From positions 1 to 48,885 of the forward strand of contig JAFGDP010000032.1 in NCBI GenBank assembly GCA_016932075.1: DNA of 48,885 nt, in the 5' to 3' direction. The stretch is from Chitinispirillaceae bacterium. Lineage in GTDB: Bacteria; Fibrobacterota; Chitinivibrionia; Chitinivibrionales; Chitinispirillaceae. Positions 8,616 to 18,865 of the stretch are shown here, one piece after another (positions within the stretch are counted from its first letter, which is position 1; each line of letters starts with the position of its first letter). The notes under the pieces are model-generated. The model saw nothing but the letters and a program-made list of their open reading frames with translations, searched no databases and was not told the DNA's origin. Position numbers and translations under genes: made by a program.

Positions 8616-9695
8616 CTATTCGTCCCATGCCGGCTCGGTGCAGTTCCTTCCCCTGTTTTTCGCCCTATAGAGTGCGTCATCGATCCGTTTGATGAATCGG
8701 GAAATGGTCTCATTCTTTGCAAGCTGGCCCACGCCCAGGGAAATGGTTATGCCGGGCAGCGTCGTATCCCCGTATGACTCGAGCGGCATCAGGGAGATCT
8801 TCTGGCGCAGCCGCTCCGCGGCCACGAAGCCGCCCGCCAGGTCGGTCTCCATGCAGATGACGCAGAACTCCTCGCCGCCATACCTGACCCCGAAATCCGA
8901 GGGCCGCAGCCGCGTGTCAATGGCGCGGCCCACGGCCATGAGCACGCGGTCGCCCGCGGCATGACCGTACGTGTCGTTGAACTTCTTGAAATGGTCCACG
9001 TCGAACATGATAAGGCTGAGCGGGCGGCCCGACCGCTGGTGCCGGTCAATAAACCGCTTCAGATTGGCATCAAACCACCGCCGGTTCCGCTGGCCGGTCA
9101 GGTTGTCAAAGGTCGCGTCGTGTTCCAGGATTTCGTGCAGGCGCATGGTCTCGGCAATGGTGATATTGGTCGCGCGCATGCGATGCGTCAGGAGCAGGAA
9201 CATGTTTTTCGCGAACTGGTGCGAGACCGCGACCAGGTGCCAGAAAATATCCTCGCTTATTAAAAGGACCTGCGTGGACATGGCGGCCACGATGTCGGCA
9301 GAGGTCGGCCGGTGGTCAATGACCGACAACTCTCCCACTGCCTGGCCGGACTCTATGGTCGCGACAGGCTTGCCCTGCGGCGGATCAAGGTTGACGATCA
9401 GGCGGCCGCGCACGACAAGATACATGGTGGAATTGGGCTGGCCTTTCTCAATGAGCACGTCGCCTTTGTTCAATTGCCGGGTCGGCAGACCTTTGATCAG
9501 ATCCCACACGTCTTCCAGGCCAACATTTTTCAGCAGCGGAAGGCCGGCCAGTTCGTTCGGTTCCAACACATTTCCGGCAGGAATGGTGTTCCGGGCTGCA
9601 TTCGGCGCGGCAGTTGCGCTTCGAGCAGGAGCGGTGCGCCGGTTTTTCCTGCTTTGCGGCCCCGGTCTTTTCTTAGCAGCGGATGGCTTTTTCAT
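8616..9695 (-). CDS. Cyclic-nucleotide-binding domain fused to GGDEF diguanylate cyclase
   Basis: 359 residues from the Lys-rich ATG at 9695 (MKKPSAAKKRPGPQ); an upstream in-frame ATG at 9719 is the alternative, and neither has a good ribosome-binding site. The basic N-terminal 40 residues look disordered. A CNB domain follows (GDVLIEKGQPNSTMYLVVRG, then VGELSVIDHRPTSADI, keeping the phosphate-contacting E and R). The GGDEF domain begins near the LTGQRNRRWF motif, with GGEEF at 273-277. RPSD at 264-267 is the inhibitory I-site five residues before it. The protein should make c-di-GMP under control of cNMP binding and product inhibition; that control is inferred from the domains. No signal peptide or membrane segment is seen, so it is probably cytoplasmic. 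Confidence 0.92.
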   Translation of the reverse strand: MKKPSAAKKRPGPQSRKNRRTAPARSATAAPNAARNTIPAGNVLEPNELAGLPLLKNVGLEDVWDLIKGLPTRQLNKGDVLIEKGQPNSTMYLVVRGRLIVNLDPPQGKPVATIESGQAVGELSVIDHRPTSADIVAAMSTQVLLISEDIFWHLVAVSHQFAKNMFLLLTHRMRATNITIAETMRLHEILEHDATFDNLTGQRNRRWFDANLKRFIDRHQRSGRPLSLIMFDVDHFKKFNDTYGHAAGDRVLMAVGRAIDTRLRPSDFGVRYGGEEFCVICMETDLAGGFVAAERLRQKISLMPLESYGDTTLPGITISLGVGQLAKNETISRFIKRIDDALYRAKNRGRNCTEPAWDE

Positions 9696-9701
9696 GTTTT
9701 C

Positions 9702-9729
9702 AGTATAGCATGATTGCATAAATAATCAA
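9702..9729 (-). promoter_or_regulatory. Possible promoter of the CNB-GGDEF gene
   Basis: On the minus strand TTGATT (9729-9724) is followed after 16 bases by TATACT (9707-9702), a fair sigma-70-type pair. The -10 box lies only 6 bases from the ATG at 9695, which would give a leaderless message and would explain the lack of a Shine-Dalgarno there. It would exclude the upstream ATG at 9719. Confidence 0.4.
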
Positions 9730-9838: not shown

Positions 9839-9900
9839 CACAATAAAATCGCACAGACCGTTTTTTAACCGTGCTTTCAGGCTTCGAGGATATCCCGTAC

Positions 9901-12051
9901 ATGACAACACACCAGGGCACCCCTTTGGAAGAAACCAGGCCCAGACTGGTTCCCGGAACAGAGTTTATCCCTTTTAACCAGCATGTTACGTACCTGAAAA
10001 ATGCCGCGCTCGGCAGGTTCCTCAAGCTGACCTCTGCCGAGGCGGTACGGGCGCGCGAATTTGACGGCACCCGCACCTTTTCGGACATCCTGCACAAGCA
10101 TATCAGCACGGCAACCGGGAACAAGCTGCTCAACGTGGCTGAGCTGCTCCTGTTCATGAAAACAAGGGGATTTATTGCCCCGGAATCCGCTTCCGCTGCA
10201 GATGCGGGCACGGCAGCGGATGAAGCGGCGCCTTCCCCGGAAAAAGCAAAGGGGCCGTTCCTGCGCGATCTCTGGCTTTTGCCATGGAAGTTCAAAAACA
10301 CCATTCTTCAGAAAGTGGCGGTATACGCCTCTTCAACCGGAGGCCTCCTGTTCTTAAGTCTGTTGCCGGTGCTCTGCATATTCATCTCTCCCGATTACCG
10401 GGCCCTGTTTTTCGATTTCGGGAGCGTTCCACTCATTGTTGCCTCCCCTGCTGCCGCGCTGCTCCATTATGGATCAGTCATTGCGCTGCTGTACCTGTTC
10501 AGCGCGGTGATTATCTCAGTCAAAAACGTTCTGAGCGCCTATGCGCTTGCCGGCGCGGGCCTGCAACCGTTTCATCCCCGTGTCGTCATGTATTGCGGAT
10601 TCGTCTATATCGATTGCACGACGACCGATATCGTTTCCCTAGGCGCATTCGCCGTTATCCGGCTCTACATATTCAGGCTGCTCATTCCCATCCTGCTGCT
10701 TTTTGTCGTGACCGCGTTCGGCCCGATCGTTTCCGGCATGGTCGCGCTCATGACCTTTAAAAAGGCGTGCATTTTGGTGACCGCGTTCTCGGTCATGCCG
10801 CTGGTAAAGACCGACCTGAACAACATGCTGTACCTCATTGCCAGCAGCACCCGGGATTTCAAGCAGAGCCTCGCCTACCTGGGGAAAAAATATTTTTCAC
10901 GCGCATCGCACTTCTCCCTGAAACCGGGCACGGGGAATGATTTCTGCTATATCATTACCGTGCTCACGATCGTATGGCTGCTCATTACCGGCAATGTTTT
11001 GTGGGACACGCTAATGGCAAGCTTTTTCTATGTTGTTGACGGGTTCCGCTATGGATTCTCGATACAGAACGCCTATGTGCTTTTCCAGACGCTTGCCATG
11101 CTGGTCCCGTTCATCGTTCTCGTGGCCATGGCCTTTTTTGTCGGCGCATCAAACGTTCATCATGCGCTGCGTTCGCCCCTGTACCGTCTCGGCATGCTTT
11201 CCGAAAAAATGAAAGGGGCTCAGAAACCCGGTGTGGAACTGGTGGATTCGTTTGTCAGGCAGCTGCCGCTTTTTTCAACGCTTACCCCTGAGCAGCGATC
11301 GCGCCTGTGCGAGCAGTTCAGTCTGGTCTCGTGCGGGAAGGGACGGGTCGTTGTGCTGCAGGGAGAATCCGGCGACTCGTTTTACATTATCGTATCGGGC
11401 AAGATGCGGGTCGTCATCGAAGACGAATACGGCACGGAGCGGACCGTTGCCGCCCTTGGCGTGGGCGACTGTTTCGGCGAGATCGCGCTTCTGGAAAACA
11501 TCCCGCGCACCGCATCGGTCGTGGCAATGACCCCGGCATCCCTGCTCAAGCTCGAAAAACGGGATTTTGACAAGTTTCTCGAAGCCCTCCCCATTGAGAA
11601 AAACAGAATCACCGACCAGATACGGCACGGAAAGCTGCTCATGTCCATTCCGCTGTTTTCCTACCTTTCTCCGGAGCAGTTCTCATTCCTCATCACCCGG
11701 TCATCGATGGAAAAGTTCGCCAGAGGCGAGGTGATCTTCAAACAGGGGGATGATGGCGACAAAATGTACATTGTGAAAGAGGGGCAGGTTTCGATTCAGC
11801 GCATGGACAACGGCACTATGGTCATTGACAAAACCCTCTCATCAGGTTCGATTTTCGGCGAAATAGCGCTGGTGAAACATATTGCCCGGACCGCGCAGGC
11901 GAGCGCAGAGACCGACGTGGAGCTTCTCTCGGTTGCAAAAGAGACTTTTTACGAACTCATCGGCAAAAGCCTGCTCACCGGAGCAGAAATCGACCGTCTG
12001 GCCGACCGCCGGATCGCGGAGATTGGCACGTTGAGTGCCGGAAAGGCATGA
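9901..12051 (+). CDS. Membrane protein: PqqD-like N-terminus, degenerate M50 (site-2-protease-like) region, two CNB domains
   Basis: 716 residues from ATG 9901 (a GTG at 9871 is possible). Residues about 15-80 look like a PqqD-type winged domain (FIPFNQHVTYLKNAALGRFLKLT ... DILH). Residues about 140-430 hold many membrane helices. The pattern GLQPFHPRVVMYCGFVYIDCTTTD (around 220-243) resembles the GV-x-GF/YVD block of M50 metalloproteases fused to PqqD domains. The zinc motif HExxH expected in the helix near 203-213 reads IISVKNVLSAY, so the ligands are gone. Two C-terminal CNB domains follow, each with a phosphate-binding cassette: FGEIALLENIPRTASV from 525 and FGEIALVKHIARTA from 652. The protein is probably a membrane sensor responding to cyclic nucleotides and not a protease. 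The domain assignment of the middle is by eye. Confidence 0.85.
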   Translation: MTTHQGTPLEETRPRLVPGTEFIPFNQHVTYLKNAALGRFLKLTSAEAVRAREFDGTRTFSDILHKHISTATGNKLLNVAELLLFMKTRGFIAPESASAADAGTAADEAAPSPEKAKGPFLRDLWLLPWKFKNTILQKVAVYASSTGGLLFLSLLPVLCIFISPDYRALFFDFGSVPLIVASPAAALLHYGSVIALLYLFSAVIISVKNVLSAYALAGAGLQPFHPRVVMYCGFVYIDCTTTDIVSLGAFAVIRLYIFRLLIPILLLFVVTAFGPIVSGMVALMTFKKACILVTAFSVMPLVKTDLNNMLYLIASSTRDFKQSLAYLGKKYFSRASHFSLKPGTGNDFCYIITVLTIVWLLITGNVLWDTLMASFFYVVDGFRYGFSIQNAYVLFQTLAMLVPFIVLVAMAFFVGASNVHHALRSPLYRLGMLSEKMKGAQKPGVELVDSFVRQLPLFSTLTPEQRSRLCEQFSLVSCGKGRVVVLQGESGDSFYIIVSGKMRVVIEDEYGTERTVAALGVGDCFGEIALLENIPRTASVVAMTPASLLKLEKRDFDKFLEALPIEKNRITDQIRHGKLLMSIPLFSYLSPEQFSFLITRSSMEKFARGEVIFKQGDDGDKMYIVKEGQVSIQRMDNGTMVIDKTLSSGSIFGEIALVKHIARTAQASAETDVELLSVAKETFYELIGKSLLTGAEIDRLADRRIAEIGTLSAGKA

Positions 12052-13732: not shown

Positions 13733-14238
13733 ACGAACATGGCTCTGCGGGGCGACAGGGTGTAGGTGTTACTGCGTTCGGTCTTGCAGATCGACAGGTG
13801 AATGCCCAGTTTCTTTCGCTGGGGAGTGACGATGAAAAAGCTGCCGGCGTCGGCAAGCTGCACCGGCGCGCCTCCCGCGGAGTACTGTTTCTGCGGTATC
13901 CCTTCATACAGCAGGCCGTTGACTATTGCATACTGCGTCACCGCTTGCCCGGTCCAGTCGAACAACCGGACCAAGGGGACCGAGTCAAATCCGATACCGT
14001 GAGAAACCGGGGTTTCGCCTTGGGCAACCACAAACGATGCGCAGCGCACATCGCGTGAAATCCGCGCCGCGACATTGTCGTACTGCTGCTGCATCATGAA
14101 TCGCGATATGGAGGCGCTGGTTTCATTGGTGTAGGCGAATGCCACCGTATAGATGACAAACCCAAGAATCGCCGAGAGCGCCAGGGCGACCAGCGATTCC
14201 ACGAGCGTAAACCCTTTGTTGTTCTTGAGCGTATTCAT
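13720..14238 (-). CDS. PilW/GspJ-like prepilin
   Basis: 172 residues with a classical type III prepilin leader: MNTLKNNKGFTLVESLVALALS, cleavage expected after Gly9, with Phe and the conserved Glu at mature position 5. Downstream it has the SRFMMQQQYDNVAARISRDVR helix typical of PilW/GspJ proteins and a beta-rich C-terminal domain. Its ATG overlaps the stop of the upstream pilin gene (TAATG, 14240-14236). It is the middle gene of a three-gene minor-pilin operon. Confidence 0.88.
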   Translation of the reverse strand: MNTLKNNKGFTLVESLVALALSAILGFVIYTVAFAYTNETSASISRFMMQQQYDNVAARISRDVRCASFVVAQGETPVSHGIGFDSVPLVRLFDWTGQAVTQYAIVNGLLYEGIPQKQYSAGGAPVQLADAGSFFIVTPQRKKLGIHLSICKTERSNTYTLSPRRAMFVCRN

Positions 14239-14708
14239 TATTGCACCGGGGCAAGGATTTTCGTGAGCGTGATCGAATCAGCCGCCTGCGCGTCAACGTT
14301 CCACCGGCAGGTTATGGCGACCTGCTTTCCAGGAAACGTGCAGCCGTTGTCGGTGACCGGCGAAACGTCCGTGACCACGGTCGTCAGCACCCCCTGCAGC
14401 GGATTGCCGCCCCGTGAATCAATGGTCATGGTTTCGGTCTGGGTGATGTTGGACACGATGGTCGGGTAGTTCCTGAAATCAAACCGGTCCTCAAGGACCG
14501 ATTGGATAAGCGCGCGCGCCTGTCTCCGGTCATTGTCGGTCACCTGCAGCCTGACGCCGGAACTGACGGCGGAGATGACGGCAACCACAGAGAGCGCGAC
14601 AAAAATCGCTGAAACCAGCACTTCGACCAGCGAAAGGCCTTGCGTGTTTGCGCACGGGCCAGCGAGCACCCTGACCGTTTTTTTCAACCAACCGAGCCGT
14701 GTCTGCAT
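14238..14708 (-). CDS. PilV/GspI-like prepilin
   Basis: 156 residues from ATG 14708. The leader ends at NTQG and continues LSLVEVLVSAIFVALSVVAV, a prepilin cleavage and N-methylation site with Glu at mature position 5. The next part (VTDNDRRQARALIQSVLEDRF) is the PilV-type helix. The open frame extends upstream to 15824, but that extension only mirrors the plus-strand gene at 14916-16205 and has no leader, so it is not coding. It is the first gene of the minor-pilin operon. A TATAAT at 14745-14740 could be its -10 box. Confidence 0.85.
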   Translation of the reverse strand: MQTRLGWLKKTVRVLAGPCANTQGLSLVEVLVSAIFVALSVVAVISAVSSGVRLQVTDNDRRQARALIQSVLEDRFDFRNYPTIVSNITQTETMTIDSRGGNPLQGVLTTVVTDVSPVTDNGCTFPGKQVAITCRWNVDAQAADSITLTKILAPVQ

Positions 14709-14915
14709 GAAATTGTTTCCCAATGGAAAAGTCCCTATAATTATATCCAAAATCGACAAGCGAGTACAGGGTATTTTTATCTGCCATCTCCGTATCCCCC
14801 GCCATTGTCTCCGGAAGCTCGCCATGGTATACTTTTCATGACAGTACGGCCGGGATTTTTTAGGCGGCACGTGCCGTGACCGCACCGCACCATATTGTAC
14901 CGTAAGGAAATTGTG

Positions 14916-16205
14916 ATGATCCTTGTCCCCTTTATCACCGATAAAAAAGAGCTGATCGAGAGCGTCACCGAAGCCATCAATGAGGGACTTCGCCCAAGCG
15001 ACGCGGCCCAGGTGGTCACGCTCACCAACCATGACAAGGCCATGGACTACCTGAACCTTGAAATGCCTGACCTGGTCTGCATCGATTTCTCCTGCACCAG
15101 CCTCAACCCGTACGTGCTGCTCGACAGCATCATGGGCGATCCCTGGATCCTGCACGCCGGCATCATCGCGTTCTGCAACGATCCCAGGGAGGAACAGCGC
15201 CTCAACGAGATGAAGGCCGCGAACATCATCGTGGTCATGCGGTACGGCGAAATCGAACGCACCCTGCCGAAAATGATCTCCATCATCTATTCCAACCGCC
15301 GGATCCTGTTCCAGCGCGTCATCGGCATGGACCTGCAGGACACCATTTCCGCGTCGTTCCAGCTTGATAATGACGTGCACGAAGCGTCGTGCTACGCCAA
15401 CCTGGTTGCGAACTATCTGCACAACACCAACAAAATCGACCAGGACGGCAAGAACAGTATTGCGGTGTCGCTGTACGAGCTGCTCATCAATGCGATCGAG
15501 CACGGTAACTGCGGTATTTCCTACGACGAAAAAAGCGCCTGGATGGAGAAGGGCGGAGAGATGATCGAGCTCATCCGCAAACGGTGCGAGGACCCCGCGA
15601 TCGGCAAACGCAAGGTGACGTTTGACTATACCATCGATCCGGGATCTTCCAAGTATGTCATAACCGATGAAGGAAACGGTTTCAACTGGAACGCAACCCC
15701 CGATCCAACCGAAGGCGCGAACATTGAACTGCCGCACGGCCGCGGGATCCTCATGGCCCGGGCATTCACCAATGAACTTGCGTACAATGAAAAGGGAAAT
15801 TCCGTACGCTTCGGCCTGGAGCACCTCAACAAGGGAACCCTTATCACGCCGGCCATTTTCAAGAGCATCGAACCGACCGACGTGAAACGGGGAGCAATCG
15901 TTCTCCGCGAGGGCGAAGAGAGCGACTTTCTGTGCTACATCATCCGGGGAACGTACGATATCATCGTCAACGACAAAAAGGTTTCCGCGCTTTCAGAGGA
16001 CGACATCTTCCTGGGCGAGATGTCGTTTCTGCTCAACAACCGGAGGACCGCTACGGTCAAGGCCACCACCGACGGCCGCCTGATCAAGGTGTCGAAACGG
16101 GAGTTCGTGGACGCCATCAAGAAAAAACCCCACTACGCCCTCATGCTCGCGCGCCTGCTTGCCCAGCGCATTCACCGGAACAACATGGTTTCGGCGAAGG
16201 GGTGA
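14916..16205 (+). CDS. Signalling protein: receiver-like, RsbW-type HATPase and CNB domains
   Basis: 429 residues from ATG 14916, with AAGGA 7 bases upstream (a TTG at 14895 is less likely). Residues 1-120 have a receiver-like layout (ILVPFITDKKELI ... DLVCIDFSCTSL ... IIAFCND ... NIIVVMRYGEI), with D at the phospho-acceptor position of CIDFS. Residues about 140-310 are a GHKL/HATPase_c_2 domain of the anti-sigma RsbW kind: N-box SLYELLINAIEHGN, then VITDEGNGFNW and HGRGILMARAFTNEL. Residues about 320-420 are a CNB domain (VLREGEESDFLCYIIRG ... LGEMSFLLNNRRTATVKA). It probably acts as a cNMP-tuned anti-sigma or serine kinase switch. No partner anti-anti-sigma gene lies in the window. Confidence 0.87.
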   Translation: MILVPFITDKKELIESVTEAINEGLRPSDAAQVVTLTNHDKAMDYLNLEMPDLVCIDFSCTSLNPYVLLDSIMGDPWILHAGIIAFCNDPREEQRLNEMKAANIIVVMRYGEIERTLPKMISIIYSNRRILFQRVIGMDLQDTISASFQLDNDVHEASCYANLVANYLHNTNKIDQDGKNSIAVSLYELLINAIEHGNCGISYDEKSAWMEKGGEMIELIRKRCEDPAIGKRKVTFDYTIDPGSSKYVITDEGNGFNWNATPDPTEGANIELPHGRGILMARAFTNELAYNEKGNSVRFGLEHLNKGTLITPAIFKSIEPTDVKRGAIVLREGEESDFLCYIIRGTYDIIVNDKKVSALSEDDIFLGEMSFLLNNRRTATVKATTDGRLIKVSKREFVDAIKKKPHYALMLARLLAQRIHRNNMVSAKG

Positions 16206-16225
16206 GGGCTGTTCCTTGTATTATG

Positions 16226-16766
16226 ATGAAAACAGGCTGTTTTGGATGGAAATGGGAACATCTCTCTGGAAATGGCACTGCTACACGCATAAAAAGGATC
16301 TTCTGCCTGGAAATCACGCTGCCACAATCAGCAGCAGGGTACTCTCACTGAAAATGACGCTGACACGTGTGTAAATGGTGTTTTCTCTCTTGAAACACCG
16401 CTGCCAAATTTGGCAGCGGTGCAATCTCCCTGAAAATTTCATTGTAAATTTTGGCAGCGGTGCACAATGGAGAGAATGCACCATTGCAAAATTTCGCGGC
16501 GGTGCAATCTCTCTGAAAATTTCATTGTAAAATTTGGCAGCGGTGCACAATGGCGAGAGTGCACCATTGTAAAATTTCGCAGCGGTGCACAATGGCGAGA
16601 ATGCACCATTGTGAAATTTATCAGCGTCATTTCCAGAGAGAAAACGCTATTTACAGGGTCATTTGCGGCATTTTGCCCGGAACATGTCCTGTTTTCAAAC
16701 GTCACAGCGCCATTTTTCCGGAAAACGTCATGTTTATAGGATGGGCAGCGTCATTTATCCGGATTG
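16226..16766. repeat. Phased 41/42-bp repeat array with inverted arms
   Basis: Left arm: TGAAAATGACGCTGCC-like units begin near 16270, 16311, 16352, 16393 and 16434 (41-base steps), with an extra weak copy at 16250. Centre: AAATTTGGCAGCGGTGCA-like units at 16406, 16446, 16488, 16530, 16572 and 16614 (42-base steps). Several carry ACAATGG...TGCACCATTGT, which can form alternative hairpins. Right arm: the left-arm motif in reverse complement (CAGCGTCATTT-CCGG) at 16622, 16664, 16705 and 16746. A perfect 26-bp palindrome sits at 16396-16421. Short overlapping ORFs on both strands are by-products of the 42-base (14-codon) period. No unique spacers are present, so it is not a CRISPR. Confidence 0.85.
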
Positions 16767-16947
16767 ATCACGCTTTTCAGGTTGTGCAGGCATGTTTTTA
16801 GAAACGAAAACCCGTTGCCCTGTTTCTCGGGCCAGATAATATCCGGCGCCCCCCCCCCCGGCCATCATTTACCAGCAGCGGCATTCATAACGCGTCGCGT
16901 TTCTCATGCCATACAGCTGCCGGTACCACGGCGTGTTTTCCTGTTCC
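16767..16947. other. Intergenic stretch with a poly-C tract
   Basis: No gene is seen between the repeat array and the stop of the sialidase-like gene. An 11-base C run (16849-16859) is present, about 90 bases past the end of that gene; it is the longest homopolymer I noticed and a possible slippage or assembly-error site. Confidence 0.4.
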
Positions 16948-18696
16948 TCAATACACGCAAAACCGCTGCACCACCGACGCGCTGCCGGCGGACAGCCGGT
17001 AAAAATAGGCGCCGGGAGCGAGTTTGGATGCGTCCAGGGCCAGCGTATGATTGCCGGAGCGCGCATACCGCTTGGCGACGGACGCGACATGCTTTCCGGC
17101 CATTGAAAAGACGGCGCATTGCACTGCCGCGGCCCCGGGCACGGTAAAGGCGATATCGACCCGTCCGGCGTCCTGATGCAGCGTGGTCTCCCGCACCTGA
17201 AAACCGCCCTGCGCAGCACCGTTTTGACCGCCGGCGACCGGCACCTGCTCGGTCATGATTGCCATCCACGCGCTGAGGCTGCTGTTGTCCATTCTCATCC
17301 ATATCGGATAGACGTTCCCGCCATAAGCCGCGATGCCGGTGTAATCGCCGAAAAACACCGAGCTTACGGGCGTGAAGGCCGACTGGCTGACGATGACGTT
17401 GTCAAACGTTTCGCCGCCGTCCCGTGAACGCGCGACGCAGACTTCGGTCGCATCGCCGCTCGTGTTCCGGCGGTCGTAAAAAACGATGTAGATAGAGGCG
17501 GTGACCGGATCAACGCACATCCAGCAGAAAAACTGGTGACGGTTTGAGTTGTCGCTGTTGACCTTTTTCGGGCTCGACCAGGTCTCGCCGCCATCGGTTG
17601 ACTTTATAAAAAACACGTCGGTGTTGTTCGCGCCGTTGCGCTGGTCGGACCAGTTCACATAGATGTTGCCCCGGTGTTCGGTCGCGCTGATATCGGCGCA
17701 GATGATCGGCATTCCATTGCACCGCTGAATGCCCGAAACCGGATAGTTCCAGCCGCCGGGCTGGTCAGCGATGATTTTGTCCCTGCCGAAGGTCTCGCCG
17801 CCGTCAAGCGATTTGTCGAAATAGAGCTTCTCGAACCCGGCCCAGCACTCATACACTTCGCCGTCCGGCCCGACGGCCGGGACCGCGCCCTCGAGCGCGT
17901 CGTCGTTGTCAAGGCAGCCGCCAAGCGTATCGCTGATAACGACCGGTTCGCTCCAGGTGCTTCCCTTGTCCCTGGAGCAGGAGAAACGTATCCGTGTTTT
18001 GTGCGCGGGATCGTTGCTGTCATATTTATCGAACTCGGTCCAGCTCACGTACACGCTGTTTTTGTACGGAGAATCGGACAGGTCCACGGCAAGCCACTCC
18101 TTGTCCTGATTGCGCGCCTGGGAACCGGTAAGCATGCGGTAGCCGATGCCGGACTCATGGCTCCAGGTCGCACCGCCGTCTGTTGATTTGTGGACGACGA
18201 TGCGGTCGGGCCAGTACGACGCCGGCTCGGAAATGTGCCCGTAATACACGACGCCGGTCGCGTCGAACACCACGCACGGGTCCCCGCACATGTTATACTG
18301 GGACGTGACGGCCTTTCCGGTCCAGGTCCTGCCCCGGTCAAACGAATAGTAATAGTAGCGCTTGTTCGATCCGGCCACAAGGTTGTTCGGGTTTGCCGGA
18401 TTTATGGCAATGCACATCTCCTGCGGCCTGAAGTTCTGCGTTGCGTTGTCCACCCGGATGTTTGGGTAGGAGCCATAGACCGCGGCGGACGGGCCGCGCT
18501 CACTTTCCGTACCCTGCTCCTGGTGGGGCAGCGGCTCCCGCACCCGCCGTTTGTTTGATCCGGCCACGGCGCTGTCAGCCTTTGAAAATACGGGTTTTTG
18601 GGCATGCGTCGCGCCCGGCTCGTTTGCATCCGGGGAAAAGAGCATGCCTGCGGCAAGCAGCAGTGCCATTAATGGTAAATAACGTTTTCTGCGCAT
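16948..18696 (-). CDS. Secreted BNR-repeat (sialidase-like) beta-propeller protein with sorting tail
   Basis: 582 residues from ATG 18696, chosen for GGGAG 8 bases upstream and an N-terminal signal peptide (MRRKRYLPLMALLLAAGMLF). At least six Asp-boxes (S-x-D-x-G-x-T-W/F) are spaced along the protein: SFDRGRTW, STDGGATW, SRDKGSTW, SLDGGETF, STDGGETW and SRDGGETF. These indicate a six-bladed propeller of the sialidase/BNR type. A FRIP-type arginine motif and the usual Tyr/Glu pair cannot be assigned, so sialidase activity is not shown; binding or hydrolysis of another glycan is as likely. Residues about 510-582 are a T9SS-like tail (VFSMAGKHVASV ... LAPGAYFYRLSAG ... QRFCVY). Confidence 0.88.
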   Translation of the reverse strand: MRRKRYLPLMALLLAAGMLFSPDANEPGATHAQKPVFSKADSAVAGSNKRRVREPLPHQEQGTESERGPSAAVYGSYPNIRVDNATQNFRPQEMCIAINPANPNNLVAGSNKRYYYYSFDRGRTWTGKAVTSQYNMCGDPCVVFDATGVVYYGHISEPASYWPDRIVVHKSTDGGATWSHESGIGYRMLTGSQARNQDKEWLAVDLSDSPYKNSVYVSWTEFDKYDSNDPAHKTRIRFSCSRDKGSTWSEPVVISDTLGGCLDNDDALEGAVPAVGPDGEVYECWAGFEKLYFDKSLDGGETFGRDKIIADQPGGWNYPVSGIQRCNGMPIICADISATEHRGNIYVNWSDQRNGANNTDVFFIKSTDGGETWSSPKKVNSDNSNRHQFFCWMCVDPVTASIYIVFYDRRNTSGDATEVCVARSRDGGETFDNVIVSQSAFTPVSSVFFGDYTGIAAYGGNVYPIWMRMDNSSLSAWMAIMTEQVPVAGGQNGAAQGGFQVRETTLHQDAGRVDIAFTVPGAAAVQCAVFSMAGKHVASVAKRYARSGNHTLALDASKLAPGAYFYRLSAGSASVVQRFCVY

Positions 18697-18865
18697 TGTA
18701 ACGGCTCCCTTGTCTGGAAAAGAGTGTGTGACGATGTGCCCCGCAGCCATCACGCCCTTCCGCCCTGCTGCCGGCCCTGGTTCGGGCGCGCATACGATGG
18801 AGAAACGACAGGCGATCGGCTGCCGCGGGTATGACTCGATGCAATATAAATTATGCTATTTGTTA

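Follow-up and report, generated by a model that had tools for sequence, protein, structure and literature searches.

The window analysed here, a stretch of 48,885 nt, belongs to an uncultured, Chitinispirillaceae-like host (Fibrobacterota). Within it, a repeat array fills part of a 742-bp gap between a HATPase/cNMP-binding gene on the plus strand and a BNR-repeat gene on the minus strand; the two genes are convergent, with their 3' ends facing the array, which is thus located at a 3'-3' junction. The array is non-coding, and its GC content is 45%, compared with 56% across the window. The features of the locus were as follows.

14916..16205, plus strand: left flanking gene, encoding a 429-aa protein with HATPase_c_2 and cyclic-nucleotide-binding domains (Pfam; homologues)
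16219..16239, no strand: left edge, unit-like but eroded (periodic layout, weak)
16240..16403, minus strand: left arm, four 41-bp units (alignment, matrix)
16396..16421, no strand: perfect 26-bp palindrome CACCGCTGCCAAATTTGGCAGCGGTG (sequence)
16396..16561, no strand: 83-bp tandem duplication (16396-16478 and 16479-16561), 89% alike (sequence)
16404..16444, minus strand: central minus unit 1 (held-out match of the arm-only matrix, 21.9)
16455..16495, plus strand: central plus unit 1, with the different motif CAGCGGTGCACAATGG... (alignment)
16487..16527, minus strand: central minus unit 2, 90% alike to unit 1 and 83 bp distant from it (alignment, matrix)
16538..16620, plus strand: central plus units 2 and 3, 42 bp apart and 93% alike (alignment)
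16622..16786, plus strand: right arm, four 41-42-bp units starting at 16622, 16664 (weak), 16705, and 16746 (alignment)
16787..16827, plus strand: possible last unit, strongly eroded (arm matrix score 6.8, which is background level)
16948..18753, minus strand: right flanking gene, encoding a BNR-repeat protein with a Por-secretion-tail-like C-terminus below the Pfam cut-off (Pfam)

The left flanking gene had 2743 homologues, with identities of at most 78% apart from the gene itself; among the best 120 of these 2743, the 15 carrying an organism name came from Chitinispirillaceae (6), Chitinivibrionales (4), Fibrobacter (1), and other phyla (4). Across 40 genomes of the order, the best full-length match to the PriA protein of the window (genome G013) was 60% identical to it, and no fragment exceeded 61%. 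PADLOC models of Pycsar TIR effectors matched the cNMP-binding part alone (residues 312-427) of the left flanking protein, which is probably not a defence protein. Two further proteins are encoded a few kb before the array: at 8616-9719, a GGDEF protein that shows weak CRP-like matches, and at 9871-12051, a protein of 726 aa containing cNMP-binding stretches. The strand opposite the cNMP-binding gene carries a 528-aa open frame without a Pfam match (14238-15824, minus strand), which is probably spurious and misleads ORF-based orientation calls. Between the same two genes as the array, and approximately 60 bp past it, a run of 11 C (16849-16859) forms the longest homopolymer of the window and could be a slippage site or a weak spot of the assembly.

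The periodicity of the array was determined by autocorrelation over 16219-16800, with 500 dinucleotide shuffles as a control. Peaks were observed at 41 bp (z 12.3), 83 bp (z 10.7), 42 bp (z 7.1), and 82 bp (z 7.0), compared with a largest z of 4.6 at any tested period in the shuffles, and TRF also returned 41-, 42-, and 83-bp arrays at this site; these results confirmed the regular 41/42-bp period of the preliminary description. That description had also counted more than a dozen units, and 13 could be placed in 16240-16786, six minus and seven plus, at spacings of 41, 42, or 83 bp, which is just over a dozen with one weak unit included. The minus units end at 16280, 16321, 16362, 16403, 16444, and 16527 (spacings 41, 41, 41, 41, and 83 bp; the first four form the left arm), and the plus units start at 16455, 16538, 16580, 16622, 16664, 16705, and 16746 (spacings 83, 42, 42, 42, 41, and 41 bp); the conserved half-unit is CAGCGtCATTTcCAGaGAGA. 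The weak unit, 16664, was placed by spacing and alignment and was missing, at both matrix widths, from the 24 best matches of the arm-only matrix, whose training set consisted of seven arm units, including 16622, 16705, and 16746 and leaving out 16664. The arms are inverted, as had been stated, the left units being minus and the right units plus: inverted pairs joining the arms were 87% identical over 23 nt and 78% over 59 nt, and the dyad score of the whole region was 8.5, compared with a maximum of 4.9 in 200 shuffles. Neighbouring pairs that include arm units were alike at only 51-66% in six of eight cases and less in the other two (16580/16622, 27%; 16622/16664, 37%). Unit 16622 showed 56-71% identity to the four left-arm units, and the other three right-arm units showed 39-56%.

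Plus and minus units are intermingled in the centre of the array, where three pairs are 90-93% alike. Compared with the six minus units, the central plus units reached an ungapped identity of 24-46%, with the arm motif unrecognisable, and the third motif reported for the centre is therefore a fair description. At a matrix width of 41, the central minus units were the top held-out matches (21.9 and 13.6, compared with 11.8 for the best match outside the array); at a width of 22, they reached 14.1, compared with 13.9 for the best match elsewhere. The perfect palindrome at 16396-16421 was found as described and is the only one of at least 20 bp within the 48.9-kb window; it looks like a head-to-head junction at the point where unit orientation flips. 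Short local palindromes were not enriched in the array (3, compared with a shuffle mean of 1.5 and maximum of 4, and with a mean of 2.5 in other stretches of the window). Symmetry axes recur approximately every 20.7 bp from 16408.5 to 16595.5, which is not independent evidence, because a 41.4-bp period with inverted units dictates this spacing. The similarity of 90-93% in the centre, set against diverged arms, agrees with the centre being where turnover was most recent, and the homogeneous centre is probably the younger part.

The exclusion of CRISPR, rRNA, tRNA, and standard IS elements made at the outset was upheld. A CRISPR array was rejected in the absence of unique spacers and at the low similarity of neighbouring arm units given above; Rfam gave no match near the gathering score in 15900-17200, where the best match was far below it; no tRNA was found in the window; and no transposase was present among the 18 window proteins scanned, which are part of the ORFs of the window and include the neighbours of the array (8 against Pfam and 10 against NCBIfam). 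The same 18 proteins contained no par or rep gene, and this result, together with the convergent junction and the many such arrays in genome G027 described below, left the suggested partition site unsupported; the nucleoid-protein site proposed beside it is putative and possible. The other initial proposal, a non-autonomous palindromic element amplified in place, stood in part, since amplification fits the central 83-bp tandem duplication, and the non-autonomous palindromic element is putative. No copy of the unit was found elsewhere within the 48.9-kb window. With head-to-tail units at a fixed period above chance, the array can be classed as a minisatellite. A palindrome in every unit was rejected as a general trait, given the lack of enrichment in local palindromes and the unit dyads not shared across arrays.

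Relatives of the array were searched for by sequence. By blastn, none was found in 81 loci, L001-L080 being without an array, and the junctions behind the cNMP gene in seven relatives that were read (L001-L007) contained none. Searches of 11 genomes and then of 40 genomes of the order gave nothing above chance; in the latter, a degenerate motif pattern yielded scattered single matches in 28 of the 40, and a 42-position model yielded noise-level matches in 32 of the 40 and no clusters. The central 300 bp gave isolated matches of 18-53 nt in 36 of 167 genomes of the phylum, at chance level. No relative above chance was found in plasmids and phages, and three IMG/VR patterns led to a single match (L081), one 18-mer outside any array. 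Candidates were scored in part in the 40-genome, 42-position-model, and 167-genome searches (at most four per genome in the last), and the empty searches are weak evidence, because the DNA is very degenerate and there was no positive control. Among the open-licence PMC papers listed, no description of such arrays in this phylum was found.

We also compared arrays by period instead of by sequence. A first scan of 2.25 Mb, which skipped periods divisible by 3 (and so 21 and 42 too), revealed a sole similar period, at L180 of G027, which is AT-rich and repeats at 41 bp (z 5.1, compared with a shuffle maximum of 4.4). The window host is far from G027 (PriA 55%). This genome was sampled further, in 43 stretches totalling 430 kb, followed by a comb scan and TRF. 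Some of these stretches were non-random, coming from match lists: C72 from the search with the central 300 bp; C34, C41, C266, C299, C116, and C1 from the 42-position model; and C241 from the motif pattern. The remaining ones were chosen by contig number, and the stretches of other genomes were selected in like manner. TRF detected 11 non-coding tandem arrays of at least 80 bp in the 430 kb of G027 and three in 1.47 Mb of nine other genomes of the order, the latter with periods of 14, 18, and 28 bp, none near a multiple of 21 bp (21n). The near-21n periods of G027 were 41 (L180), 43 (L203), 21 (L205), 42 (L242), 129/43 (L252), 42 (L254), 43 (L256), and 63/42/21 bp (L260), and those off 21n were 47, 27, and 38/20 bp. 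The near-21n share is thus 8/11 (p 2.8e-5 against an assumed 15% chance), or nine arrays with L243 (38/20 bp) counted. A 42-bp array at L221 stood outside the TRF count, masked by an array-spanning ORF, and a contig-end array of approximately 21 bp at L218 fell below its 80-bp cut. All-against-all blastn of the window and nine G027 arrays gave one 19-nt match (L218-L180), and the array families are therefore not copies of one sequence.

These results bear on the earlier claim that all units face the same side of the helix. Arithmetically, approximately 41.4 bp is approximately four turns, but one array says little: helical phasing is uninformative for a single array because any tandem duplication preserves its period, and the four-turn period of a single array could be due to chance. 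The claim gains weight because the G027 arrays, mutually unrelated in sequence, mostly share a similar period. The window array, being non-coding, near 21n, convergent, and without a sequence relative, falls into the G027-type category as defined here, which also admits non-convergent cases (4/12), and the class was seen only in the window and in G027. A coding origin was excluded for the 41- and 43-bp periods, which are not divisible by 3; for the 21/42/63-bp arrays of G027, a reading as heptad repeats is conceivable in principle.

The four period scans differed in their thresholds; one masked the window array over spurious ORFs, and the comb scan used a 145-aa mask. Outside G027, the comb scan gave weak 21/42-bp signals at L183, L226, L185, L161, L006, L004, and the control L014, with no peak above the largest of 300 shuffles; six of these seven lay almost wholly inside open frames of at least 60 aa, and L161 was non-coding. 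Strong 14-, 16-, 18-, and 28-bp repeats in G010, G025, and G028 represent other repeat types. The simple arrays of G028 (L150, 13240-13330; L147, 11424-11507; L153, 12223-12317) are unlike the phased class, with an 8-bp unit GACTGAGT or CTCCTT-type 7/14/28-bp units, and one contig of the same genome has telomere-like CCTAAA repeats at its end (L157, 1-86), which are possibly contamination. A degenerate repeat of the type GCTTTTAGCCAATAGC in G010 (L174, 3140-3400) is spaced at 14/21/70 bp, and its dyad score exceeded those of shuffles. In G027, sequences of the type CATTTCGACCAGTCTTCG...GAGAAATCT occur at L203 (5500-5570) and a 27-bp array with CTCGTCGAAATGACATG at L260 (2733-2835), both of which, we presume, recall CGTC-type REP repeats. 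A cobalamin riboswitch (74 bits) was located at L262 (50-240), approximately 1.3 kb from a 43-bp array.

All five G027 families that were tested are dispersed within that genome. Counting the query's own contig, and for families other than those of L254, L260, and L203, the 43-bp family occurred on eight contigs (three with matches of just 35-71 bp), the 42-bp family on eight, the 41-bp AT-rich element on five (three near full length), and the L252 family on three, each in one of 40 genomes; the 21-bp family occurred on five contigs, in one of five genomes searched. Members of the L256 family share approximately 40-90 bp of flank beyond the array, in two groups (L262, L264, and L265; L263 and L266), and these arrays were therefore probably copied as elements, as judged from this sequence comparison. 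The closest architectural match to the window array was L180, with approximately 500 bp, a 41-bp period, and convergent genes. The L180 element spans approximately 480 bp, and copies of it that are nearly full length show 84% and 73-74% identity; it contains a 40-nt inverted pair (70%), but its overall dyad score was not above shuffles (5.8, compared with a mean of 5.6 and a maximum of 6.8), and its sharing of inverted arms is not firm. The other G027 arrays that were laid out look direct by eye.

Among the 12 G027 arrays with both flanks, eight were convergent, two minus-minus, one plus-plus, and one divergent, compared with 16 convergent among 96 gaps of at least 200 bp in the same sample (p 1.6e-4). 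The eight of 12 combine 6/9 by script with 2/3 by eye, on greedily called ORFs; arrays of the same family are not wholly independent, and with the L256 family counted once, the scripted set gave 4/6 (p 0.009). The count leaves out L205, L242, L254, L266, L218, and L279, which lack a flank, as well as L285, which counts as convergent on the basis of short ORFs, and L286, with a single flank. The window itself was scripted as minus-minus owing to the antisense ORF at 14238-15824 and was set as convergent by hand on Pfam and homologues; similar ORF errors may affect other orientation rows.

Properties other than period were less uniform. With the wedge parameters used here, predicted bending was raised in 4 of 14 arrays (the window, z 3.6, L180, L205, and L260) and ordinary or low in 10, and curved DNA was rejected as a common function. 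Uncorrected tests of cyclic dyad symmetry gave p values of 0.0005-0.0115 for five L256-family units, L242, and the window core and of 0.033 for the 83-bp window unit; the symmetry was not significant for L252, L254, L260, L203, and the window arm unit (L180, L205, and L218 being left out). Across three copies of the 41-bp element of G027, conservation was not clearly periodic (p(max) 0.13-0.27), and nine targeted periodicity tests on it included one at p 0.012 and one at 0.051.

Taken together, the near-21n arrays of G027 and the window array have in common that they are non-coding, of similar period, private in sequence, and biased toward 3' junctions; predicted bending, unit dyads, inverted arms, and RNA covariation (one element, one strand) are not common to them. 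Protein binding at two- or four-turn intervals fits these traits best, because what is shared would depend on spacing and tolerate sequence change. Thus, we propose, tentatively and with a probability of approximately 0.4, that the array is a helically phased inverted minisatellite that was amplified in place and whose spacing is perhaps kept by a protein binding one face of the helix. Such arrays would begin by tandem duplication and inversion; those with whole-turn periods may be favoured, as their repeats would line up sites along one helix face for a DNA-binding protein that acts as a dimer or oligomer; and the bound block between convergent genes might act as a roadblock to read-through or as a nucleoid anchor. 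Support is good for the array itself and for the phasing in G027; the protein step is hypothetical and would extend to the window by analogy with G027.

A close second, which we regard as possible although somewhat doubtful, is a neutral or selfish minisatellite that arises by slippage and local inversion and survives where no promoter is harmed, its approximately 42-bp period being functionless. The strong divergence of the arm units beside a homogeneous centre, the absence of a sequence relative in the genomes searched, and the lack of a common bending or dyad are all consistent with this explanation, and the rarity of arrays in divergent gaps (1/12) fits purifying selection alone. It accounts for everything but the common period: near-21n periods shared by unrelated G027 arrays are left unexplained, and the arrays of the other genomes repeat at 14, 18, and 28 bp. 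We consider it improbable that the array is a REP/BIME-like mobile element, in which small palindromes, clustered and mobilised by a tyrosine transposase, would have amplified in place. Its inverted units would suit such an element, as would the CGTCATTT strings in the right arm, which we take to recall CGTC repeats. The intergenic site between convergent genes also agrees with what PMC3733652 describes for REPs. Judged by eye against the same description (PMC3733652), the unit lacks the tagged palindrome (CGTC/GTAG, stem, short loop, and tail), and no CGTC stem 8-9 bp long with a loop of 4-5 nt and a short tail is seen in it. Nor is the array enriched in short local palindromes, and the window holds no second copy. 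Of the 40 genomes of the order, 32 contained a Y1 transposase domain, 30 of them with scores above the cut-off, in favour of mobility, but the presence of this domain does not track the arrays, and a RAYT link was discarded as uninformative at this frequency.

Slightly more improbable still is a role in RNA, in which a long hairpin transcribed from either flank would terminate or protect the convergent transcripts. The convergent position would suit this role, and both strands had a lower fold energy than their shuffles (z -6.7 for 16200-16830 plus, with 20 shuffles; z -8.8 for 16219-16800 minus, with 100 shuffles), but with inverted arms a fold is unavoidable whichever strand is considered. 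Scanning for terminators in 16150-17000 gave one site, outside the array, compared with 1.2 expected. In the three-copy alignment of the G027 41-bp element, taken on one strand, both sides had changed in 5 of 99 pairs and the covariation term was unfavourable; with no covariation support there and no Rfam family at the array, a structured RNA is unsupported.

We conclude that the array is a real and unusual intergenic tandem repeat, belonging to a variant in which the helical period is the constant feature, and that it may represent a poorly described class of intergenic repeats in which spacing possibly outweighs sequence. The shared trait is the period, across unrelated sequences in two distant species of apparently one order. 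If the phasing is selected, these arrays would be a natural experiment on the needs of a nucleoid or insulator protein that reads helical phase, and they would escape grouping in surveys of repeats by sequence; without such selection, they would provide a clean case of satellite-like turnover in a bacterium. It is unlikely, but conceivable, that some Chitinispirillales carry a dedicated system of architecture or insulation, in which a protein would read two- or four-turn spacing over sequence and fast-turnover 'bacterial satellites' would mark or insulate convergent junctions.

Sequence is the usual basis for classifying the intergenic repeats of bacteria (REP, BIME, MIRU, Correia). Minisatellites and intergenic VNTRs such as MIRU consist of tandem units of tens of bp, lie between genes at several loci per genome, and are species-specific, all of which the arrays described here share; what sets the present case apart is the inverted arms of the window array, its very degenerate units, and a helical period common to unrelated families. 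The iterons of plasmid origins are direct repeats of approximately 20-22 bp, two helical turns apart, with one protein per site on one face; the window array differs in that no Rep gene was found among the proteins scanned and that G027 has many loci. The GTAG and CGTC super-families of REP/BIME, as described in PMC3733652, have inverted units in intergenic positions between convergent or unidirectional genes, and the array resembles them in its inverted units, intergenic position, and convergent junction; in comparison with the same description, it differs in that no tag-stem-loop-tail was seen, in its regular 41-43-bp spacing, and in its private sequences. Borg tandem repeats, as described in PMC9879509, are perfect head-to-tail units on archaeal extrachromosomal elements, often within genes, which sets them apart; they resemble the present arrays in that there are many independent arrays per genome, approximately half of them outside genes, with example units of 18-21 nt and contigs that end at arrays (PMC9879509).
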